A stretch of 45,520 bases of DNA, taken from NCBI GenBank assembly GCA_013375375.1, contig JABXJX010000008.1, positions 1-45,520 on the forward strand. Reading direction: 5' to 3'. Position numbers and translations under genes: made by a program. Numbering within the stretch: position 1 is the stretch's first letter; each line of letters starts with the position of its first letter. A model generated the notes under the pieces. It searched no databases and was not told the origin of the DNA. It saw nothing but the letters and a program-made list of their open reading frames with translations. Origin of the DNA: Desulfobacterales bacterium. GTDB taxonomy: Bacteria; Desulfobacterota; Desulfobacteria; Desulfobacterales; C00003060. Below, one piece after another: positions 3,940 through 5,417 of the stretch.

Positions 3940-3966
3940 TCAAGTTTTTGATGAAAATACCGAAAA
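3940..3966 (+). promoter_or_regulatory. Sigma-28 (FliA)-like promoter
   Basis: TCAAGTTT, an 11-nt spacer, then ACCGAAAA match the enterobacterial sigma-28 consensus TAAAGTTT-N11-GCCGATAA at 13 of 16 positions with exact spacing. Transcription would start near 3973, about 12 nt before the riboswitch aptamer. The target is a FliD-like gene, exactly the late-flagellar class normally driven by FliA. Confidence 0.65.
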
Positions 3967-3984
3967 ATAGTATATGAGAGATTG

Positions 3985-4074
3985 TGCGTTGAGGGGCAAA
4001 CTTGCCAAAAGGTAGGGACGCAAAGCTTCCGGCCTAAGTTCCGATTTATCGGAATAAGGCAGCGGGGTTGCAAG
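3985..4074 (+). promoter_or_regulatory. Cyclic di-GMP-I (GEMM) riboswitch aptamer
   Basis: The conserved GEMM-I backbone is plain: GGGGCAAAC, then GGGACGCAAAGC, CCGGCCTAAG, a GTTCCGATTTATCGGAA hairpin arm, and AGGCAGCGGGGTTGC. The order and spacing match the class that binds c-di-GMP, including the tetraloop-receptor-like arm. It lies in the 5' leader of the FliD-like gene, directly before an intrinsic terminator, so it probably acts by transcription attenuation. Whether the ligand turns the gene on or off was not determined. Confidence 0.93.
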
Positions 4075-4086
4075 ACGAAGACAAGC

Positions 4087-4124
4087 AAAAGCCCGCTTTT
4101 GCCTTTCCGGAGCGGGCTTTTATT
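4087..4124 (+). terminator. Intrinsic terminator (riboswitch expression platform)
   Basis: An 11-bp perfect stem (AAAAGCCCGCT/AGCGGGCTTTT) with a 13-nt loop is followed by TTTTATTT. It sits between the c-di-GMP aptamer and the ribosome-binding site GGAGG at 4132. This is the usual layout for a riboswitch that controls read-through into the gene behind it. Confidence 0.85.
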
Positions 4125-4142
4125 TCCCAGTGGAGGTGCATG

Positions 4143-5417
4143 ATGCAAATTACCGGCTCCTACAATAATTACGTGAACATGACGAATCTTCTCGCACCAT
4201 TAGGAGCAAGGGGTTCGGCAGATTTAGTCATGCAGGTCTTTTCGTCTGCTGTGGGGAATCTCCAAGACAAGATCAACCAGCAAATATTCTCTGAGGAGTC
4301 TGATGCCGCCATTAAAGAACTTTACAATGAAGTTTCGGATCTGGCCGGCCGGGCTGAAAAATTGACACTAACTTATTTTAATTCCGTCTTTTTTGACCGC
4401 ACACCTACATCCTCGGACTCCAACGTATTGACTGCTACGGCAGTCGACGCCTTTTCTCTCGATTCCGGAGCGGCTGAGGCCACCTATAACATTTCGGTTA
4501 ACCAACTGGCGCTGGCCCAGGAAAACACAGGATTTGAGTTAAATGCAGCCGATCCGAGCGTGGTTAATCCGGGAATCAATACATTCAACATTAACATCAA
4601 CGGCCAGGACCATGAACTCGGCATTGATGTGGTGGATGGTGATACCAACGAGGTCGTACTCCAAAAAATAGTGGCGGCCATCAATGATGCCGGTTTAGGG
4701 GTGACCGGGGAGGTAACTGCCGGCAGTTTAGAGGGGACTCAACAGTTGGTCATCACGGCTGATCAAACAGGCACGGCCGGTTCTTTCACCCTGTCAGACG
4801 TATCTGGTAATGCGGTGACCGTGACAGGCACTGCTACCGTGTCAACTGTAGCTCAAGATGCTGCATATACGGTTGATGGAACCGGCTATACATCTGAAAC
4901 TAATACCATCTATCTGGATAGCGGACTCGTTACAGTCAATCTAAAAGGAGCGGGGGAATCGATCTTGACGGTGGCCCCGGATCAGAACGAGGTCGAAAAC
5001 GCCATAACCGCCTTTGTTTCAGCAGTGAATTCCATTATAGATTTTCTGGAAACCAATTGTGACTACATCGAGGACGAGGTTCTGTCGTCCGTGAATTCTT
5101 TTGTCACCGAGCACAAGAGCGAACTGGAGTCTTTCGGTGTCACCATAGAAGAAGATGGAAAGCTTGTGGTAGATACCTACAATCTGGCTACGGCCGTGAA
5201 CGACGACCTTTCAGGTATTAAAGACGCTTTTGCCGGGTTCGACGGATTGGCCGTACAGGTCAAAAACTATACCGCCCGCATATCGACCGACTCTCCTCTC
5301 AATTATGCCAAGGAAGCCGAGGGTATGAGTAAGGATTTCGTTGATTACCTCTACGGTACTTCAGCGACGATGCTGGAAAAAATCCTCCAGGGGATGCTAC
5401 TCGATACCTTTGTGTAA
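4143..5417 (+). CDS. Orphan FliD-like (flagellar hook-associated/cap) protein
   Basis: The protein is 424 aa from the ATG at 4143; an ATG at 4140 is only 3 nt from GGAGG, so the second is preferred. The N-terminal 80 residues look coiled. The stretch SDSNVLTATAVDAFSLDSG followed by YNISVNQLALAQ is typical of FliD N-terminal regions, and the Ser/Thr/Val-rich middle resembles flagellin/FliD insertion domains. The C-terminal coiled region lacks a strong FliD_C signature that I could confirm. No other flagellar gene is in the window. Control by a sigma-28-like promoter and a c-di-GMP riboswitch supports a role in flagellar cap or surface adhesion. It could instead be a FliD-derived adhesin. Confidence 0.7.
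   Translation: MQITGSYNNYVNMTNLLAPLGARGSADLVMQVFSSAVGNLQDKINQQIFSEESDAAIKELYNEVSDLAGRAEKLTLTYFNSVFFDRTPTSSDSNVLTATAVDAFSLDSGAAEATYNISVNQLALAQENTGFELNAADPSVVNPGINTFNININGQDHELGIDVVDGDTNEVVLQKIVAAINDAGLGVTGEVTAGSLEGTQQLVITADQTGTAGSFTLSDVSGNAVTVTGTATVSTVAQDAAYTVDGTGYTSETNTIYLDSGLVTVNLKGAGESILTVAPDQNEVENAITAFVSAVNSIIDFLETNCDYIEDEVLSSVNSFVTEHKSELESFGVTIEEDGKLVVDTYNLATAVNDDLSGIKDAFAGFDGLAVQVKNYTARISTDSPLNYAKEAEGMSKDFVDYLYGTSATMLEKILQGMLLDTFV

Follow-up and report, generated by a model that had tools for sequence, protein, structure and literature searches.

The flagellar sigma factor FliA commonly acts as a checkpoint in building the flagellum, and the c-di-GMP-dependent decision between motile and sessile life is usually controlled through proteins. 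Among RNA sensors of the GEMM-I class, a G at the position of Vc2 G20 marks the c-di-GMP type and an A the cGAMP type.

The closest described systems combine parts of these two controls. In Cd1, the riboswitch of the flgB operon of Clostridioides difficile, the aptamer and terminator folds coexist while an antiterminator competes, giving an OFF switch; in the pilM GEMM-I ON switch, either the aptamer or the terminator can fold, but not both (PMC9262584). In Bdellovibrio bacteriovorus, FliA is a broad attack-phase regulator with the consensus TTAAG-N16-CCGATA, and merRNA is a c-di-GMP riboswitch RNA of the swimming phase (PMC3627812). Geobacter GEMM-I/Ib riboswitches precede genes for cytochromes, pili, and surface proteins (PMC6456294). 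Here, we describe a locus in which a FliA-type promoter and a c-di-GMP-I riboswitch precede a short second fliD gene.

Organization of the orphan fliD locus

The window is a 45,520-nt stretch of DNA from an uncultured, sulfate-reducer-like bacterium of the Desulfobacterales (contig JABXJX010000008.1), the genome of which comprises 2.18 Mb in 197 contigs and is 87% complete. The features of interest are as follows:

3940..3966, + strand: sigma-28 (FliA)-type promoter, −35 TCAAGTTT at 3940-3947 and −10 ACCGAAAA at 3959-3966
3985..4075, + strand: c-di-GMP-I (GEMM-I) riboswitch aptamer, Rfam RF01051
4087..4121, + strand: intrinsic terminator AAAAGCCCGC-loop-GCGGGCUUUU, expression platform, −17.7 kcal/mol
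4132..4136, + strand: Shine-Dalgarno sequence GGAGG, read from the sequence
4143..5417, + strand: orphan short FliD paralogue, PF02465 and PF07195 over cut-off

The promoter has the layout TCAAGTTT-N11-ACCGAAAA, and transcription is expected to start at ~3973. The aptamer matches RF01051 over its full length (model positions 1-87; 70.5 bits, cut-off 35; E = 6e-12) and is the only Rfam match within the window. The terminator ends ~20 nt upstream of the start codon, and the GGAGG is followed by ATGATG; the protein has 424 residues from the conserved Met at 4143, or 425 with the ATG at 4140 as the start. A preliminary description of this DNA had named a FliA-type promoter with 13/16 matches and an exact 11-nt spacer, a textbook GEMM-I aptamer, and an intrinsic terminator behind it, all of which our analysis bears out.

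The same description held that the gene has no flagellar neighbors and called for a search for a second fliD in the flagellar cluster. Assignment of the neighboring genes agrees with the former: they encode a ChaN-PDZ protein, an endonuclease/exonuclease/phosphatase-family protein, a CYTH protein, ribosomal proteins L13/S9, amino-acid biosynthesis enzymes, T2SSF- and PilS-like proteins, and others, with no flagellar gene among them. The search succeeded, as the main fliD lies on contig C9, adjoining fliS-, flaG-, and fliC-like genes.

The sigma-28-type promoter

The 13/16 matches of the window promoter to TAAAGTTT-N11-GCCGATAA are of a grade also reached by ~4.5% of shuffles (220 nt), and judged alone the promoter is only suggestive. 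Despite this weak single-copy evidence, conservation settles the call: a sigma-28-type box scoring at least 11/13 is found in 13/13 orthologous orphan-fliD loci, against 0.38 expected from shuffles, and a TAAAG-type −35 with a GCCGATAA-type −10 at 14–16 nt is kept in the orthologues. The −35 is weak at the divergent G656 locus. The genus prefers the form TMAAG-N15-NCCGATAA (30 of 36 sigma-28-linked riboswitch leaders), the spacer of which is one base longer, so that the window promoter, with its −10 ACCGAAAA, is slightly off-consensus and among the less canonical of the 13.

Transcription would depend on FliA, a gene for which is found in the window's genome (277.7 bits) and in all 16 genomes examined, exceeding the family cut-off in 15. 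A promoter of this type also precedes the main fliD and fliC, there without a c-di-GMP-I riboswitch. Genome-wide, the exact sigma-28 pattern gives 25 hits versus 12 in the reversed control, and single hits outside riboswitch leaders were therefore not trusted. We also observed a second FliA-family sigma factor (204 bits, over the family cut-off; G000:C123:11719-12378, L247:5654-6424), which lies outside the flagellar cluster of that genome; the other genomes having FliA over cut-off have one listed each.

Ligand and predicted switch polarity

Model position 11 of RF01051, which we take to be equivalent to Vc2 G20, is a G in the window aptamer and in the orthologous aptamers. This is the c-di-GMP-type residue, and c-di-GMP is the expected ligand. 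Although cGAMP-type GEMM-I switches are common in related Geobacter, and three aptamers in the genus, one of them in the window's genome, carry an A at this position, the conserved G makes it exceedingly unlikely that the window aptamer senses 3',3'-cGAMP instead. The three A-type aptamers (L005, G000:C117:25489-25579; L106; L124) also stand behind sigma-28-like promoters.

The terminator strands are separate from the aptamer strands, with no overlap. In constrained folding, enforcing the aptamer raised the terminator probability of the window leader from 0.12 to 0.91, that of G007 from 0.02 to 0.66, and that of G284 from 0.08 to 0.96, the other loci being already high; the probability was thus kept or raised in 9/9 leaders, a compatibility of the Cd1 type. 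Folding also points to competition, as the aptamer becomes costlier when the terminator 5' arm and loop are present. At equilibrium, the terminator is favored without ligand in six of the nine loci (0.71–0.99), so that switching would have to be kinetic. Only in the genus-wide set does pairing of the terminator arm with the aptamer exceed shuffles; in the orphan-fliD leaders the duplex does not (z −1.6 to +0.4), and the antiterminator there is a fold prediction. Folding predicts an OFF switch wherever aptamer and terminator occur together, the two being able to coexist as they do in Cd1, and the gene would then be read only with FliA active and c-di-GMP low.

The orphan FliD protein

The protein had been described as FliD-like, but lacking an obvious FliD_C end. 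HMMER upholds the first point, as FliD_N (PF02465) matches at 1.8e-7 (32.1 bits; cut-off 24.8), and overturns the second, as FliD_C (PF07195) matches at 1.2e-14 (54.8 bits; cut-off 25.4). In the window copy, FliD_N is aligned only from profile position 25 and FliD_C only to ~194 of 236; the conserved N terminus of the orphan family does not align to the start of FliD_N, and NCBIfam holds no family specific to it. The NCBIfam FliD equivalog models score at best 72.8 bits versus a cut-off of 387, indicating a FliD homologue rather than a canonical FliD orthologue.

An AlphaFold2 model (pLDDT 76, with low confidence at both termini) displays the D1-D2-D3 fold. Its top matches in a fold search are FliD structures, with Z 21.3 against E. 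coli FliD 5h5v and 180 residues of D2-D3 matching FliD at 2.6 Å, and neither Pfam nor the model reveals an added adhesin or other extra domain. ClyA/HlyE also figures far down among the fold matches (Z 6.8, helical), and we claim no similarity. The gene is under purifying selection (dN/dS 0.14–0.38, with 0.14 against the 77% identical G007 orthologue).

Distribution and relation to the main FliD

The search of relatives yielded an orphan family with ten intact members, plus three damaged copies, giving 13 loci. Intact copies occur in the window's genus, in another family of the order, in a third family, in a Syntrophaceae and a Deltaproteobacteria MAG, and, as a single divergent member, in another part of the phylum. 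The gene is rare and, in three species, decaying. Most genomes searched lack it, although a gene missing from an incomplete genome says little; all orphan-carrying genomes with known titles are metagenome-assembled. The damaged copies comprise a frameshift (G017), an internal deletion (G020), and a remnant (G019). The frameshift (L031:7209-8487) falls at a run of nine T and could reflect assembly error, decay, or slipped-strand phase variation. In UBA6078, a FlgC/FlgG-like gene of 120 aa (L035:5276-5635) directly follows the orphan fliD on the same strand.

The aptamer is intact at 10 of the 13 loci, a relic at one (G238, where by eye the 3' part is deleted and the terminator kept), and absent from two (G087 and G158), which keep the promoter alone; Rfam at E ≤ 1 finds no remaining aptamer in these three. 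With the promoter present throughout and the aptamer sometimes lost, the promoter would be the oldest or most constrained element, and the riboswitch a frequent, losable addition.

The presence of the orphan varies with the size of the main FliD. A giant main FliD of at least 1,010 aa is found in 8 of the 9 genomes in which the orphan is intact and a main FliD could be detected, and in 3 of 19 genomes without an intact orphan (Fisher p = 4e-4, uncorrected for phylogeny); the giant open frames span ~1,020–1,187 aa and the proteins ~1,010–1,176 aa. Where the orphan is frameshifted, deleted, or a remnant (three genomes), the main FliD is of ordinary size, 714–791 aa. In G656 the orphan occurs alongside an ordinary main FliD (open frame of 579 aa), a giant FliD with no orphan detected is present in G011, G006, and G012, and G007 has no main FliD that we could find, though its flagellar export/FliA cluster is present. 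The pattern suggests that the orphan serves the type of flagellum with a giant main FliD.

The main FliD at L022:4136-7666 (− strand) has 1,176 aa, with an insert of ~450 aa between the FliD_C helices that resembles repeated flagellin-IN-like beta domains; the structure predicted for the insert has modest confidence (pLDDT 65). The giant type is common to several families of the order.

Pairing of promoter and riboswitch in the genus

The window's genome contains 11 c-di-GMP-I riboswitches (L001-L011), most of which follow a sigma-28-type box (scores 10–12); for the eleventh, L008 (C70:16631), the box is probably a chance match. Six of the 11 score at least 11, versus ~0.2 expected at the shuffle rate. 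The 22 genomes of the genus set provide 69 testable riboswitches, and, in counts uncorrected for orthology, 36 score at least 11 (1.07 expected; one in reversed sequences) and 26 at least 12 (0.1 expected). In 37/42 sigma-28-linked cases a terminator closely follows the aptamer, versus 4/28 others (Fisher p = 4e-10). Most c-di-GMP-I riboswitches of the genus (L001-L011 and L092-L145) form two classes, with both sigma-28 promoter and terminator or with neither. Among the linked switches, the 5' arm of the terminator shows complementarity to the 3' strand of aptamer P2 (mean z −1.9), with 24 of 37 falling on that strand. A phylum-wide pairing was rejected, with 7 of 88 riboswitches in the rest of the phylum (0.8 expected).

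The genes behind these leaders are unrelated to one another. In the window's genome they encode the orphan FliD, NHL, SBBP/PKD, collagen-like, and multihaem CXXCH proteins, as well as two small proteins (78 and 124 aa). In sister species, the same sigma-28 and riboswitch leader precedes orphan FlgE-like and FlgC-like proteins (L119, L126, L127, L104), and the targets in the genus also include beta-propeller proteins. Small-protein families of ~78 aa (L006, L106, L115, L118) and 115–124 aa (L007, L129, L130, L140) recur behind such leaders in several species and have no significant Pfam match. In another family of the phylum, a sigma-28-like promoter and c-di-GMP-I aptamer precede small Flp-pilin-like proteins (EEGASAVEYGLL; L151, L207, L219).

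Discussion

Building on the elements, their conservation, the FliD fold, and the purifying selection described above, we propose that the locus works as a two-key unit, expressing an accessory flagellar protein of the cap type (FliD/HAP2), a reading that we consider reasonably probable. The first key would be FliA RNA polymerase, which, active only after the hook-basal body programme has advanced, would initiate at ~3973. The second would be turned on the nascent leader RNA, which folds into the c-di-GMP-I aptamer. At low c-di-GMP, aptamer strands would pair with the terminator 5' arm and loop as an antiterminator and the gene would be read; at high c-di-GMP, the ligand would lock the aptamer, the terminator would form, and transcription would stop. 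The short FliD, exported as an axial protein in swimming cells, may then work or alternate with the giant main FliD on the same flagellum. Its export, its place at the filament tip, and its cap function are presumed. The preliminary description had the gene answer to both the late flagellar programme and c-di-GMP as a link from motility to attachment; conservation supports the dual control, whereas the predicted OFF polarity implies expression coupled to motility rather than induction coupled to attachment.

The same regulation could serve a protein that is not a cap but another axial or secreted part, at the hook-filament junction or as a partner of the FlgC/FlgE-like orphans. The divergent termini of the orphan, the FlgC/FlgG-like gene next to it in UBA6078, and the FlgE-/FlgC-like proteins that sister species place under this promoter and riboswitch all fit this idea, but the whole fold and D2-D3 match FliD best by far, and we regard it as unlikely, if worth keeping in mind. 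That the unit is a decaying, non-functional leftover, with promoter and switch as relics, would agree with the three damaged copies, with the absence of the gene from most searched genomes, and with the off-consensus window promoter; an intact frame with a dN/dS of 0.14, and the retained compact order of promoter, aptamer, terminator, and Shine-Dalgarno sequence, make it improbable.

The suggestion that the protein is a filament-tip adhesin fares slightly worse still. ON-type GEMM-I switches do exist, as pilM illustrates, and c-di-GMP could in that case promote expression and link motility to attachment. Here, however, the terminator is clear of the aptamer and compatible with it, unlike in pilM, and the predicted OFF polarity argues against a c-di-GMP-induced adhesin. 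The orphan is moreover a plain FliD with FliD_C present, a normal D1-D2-D3 fold, and no added domain, and we consider the adhesin reading very improbable; if either FliD were adhesin-like, it would be the giant main one.

Returning to the two-key unit, its recurrence raises the possibility, which we put forward tentatively, that the flagellar sigma factor and c-di-GMP riboswitches of this lineage form one regulon re-equipping the flagellum, or the surface, of swimmers. Unrelated genes, among them those for multihaem cytochromes and for orphan axial proteins resembling FliD, FlgE, and FlgC, might then be on only while flagella are being built and c-di-GMP is low, and a giant cap could, for example, be exchanged for a short one. 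Control by FliA and by c-di-GMP appears to converge on individual transcripts, and to do so many times over across unrelated genes. The pairing would define a "swimming-only" gene set, testable gene by gene, and a short second FliD varying with main cap size offers a handle on why some flagella have giant caps. We found no paper on FliA-dependent c-di-GMP riboswitch regulons in the open-access literature searched, which does not prove that none exists.

Comparison with known systems

The spacing of the Bdellovibrio FliA consensus equals that of the N15 form of the genus. However, no gene lies downstream of merRNA, it carries no FliA promoter mark, and no multi-gene FliA-riboswitch set is described for Bdellovibrio (PMC3627812). 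The many GEMM-I switches per genome and the multihaem cytochrome targets recall Geobacter, where the switches described are cGAMP-sensing ON switches (PMC6456294); the sigma-28-linked ones here mostly carry the c-di-GMP-type G, a predicted OFF architecture, and a FliA-type promoter.

The orphan FliD shares its domain order, D1-D2-D3 fold, and FliD_N and FliD_C with FliD (HAP2) caps (E. coli 5h5v, Salmonella 9gnz), but differs from them in lying outside any flagellar cluster, in its divergent termini, in its predicted riboswitch control, and in being extra to a main, usually giant, FliD. With Cd1, the locus has in common a GEMM-I aptamer with a terminator, predicted OFF logic, and a flagellar-type gene. 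Unlike Cd1, which silences the flagellar operon itself, the switches described here follow sigma-28-type promoters and each precede one accessory gene at a great distance from the flagellar cluster.
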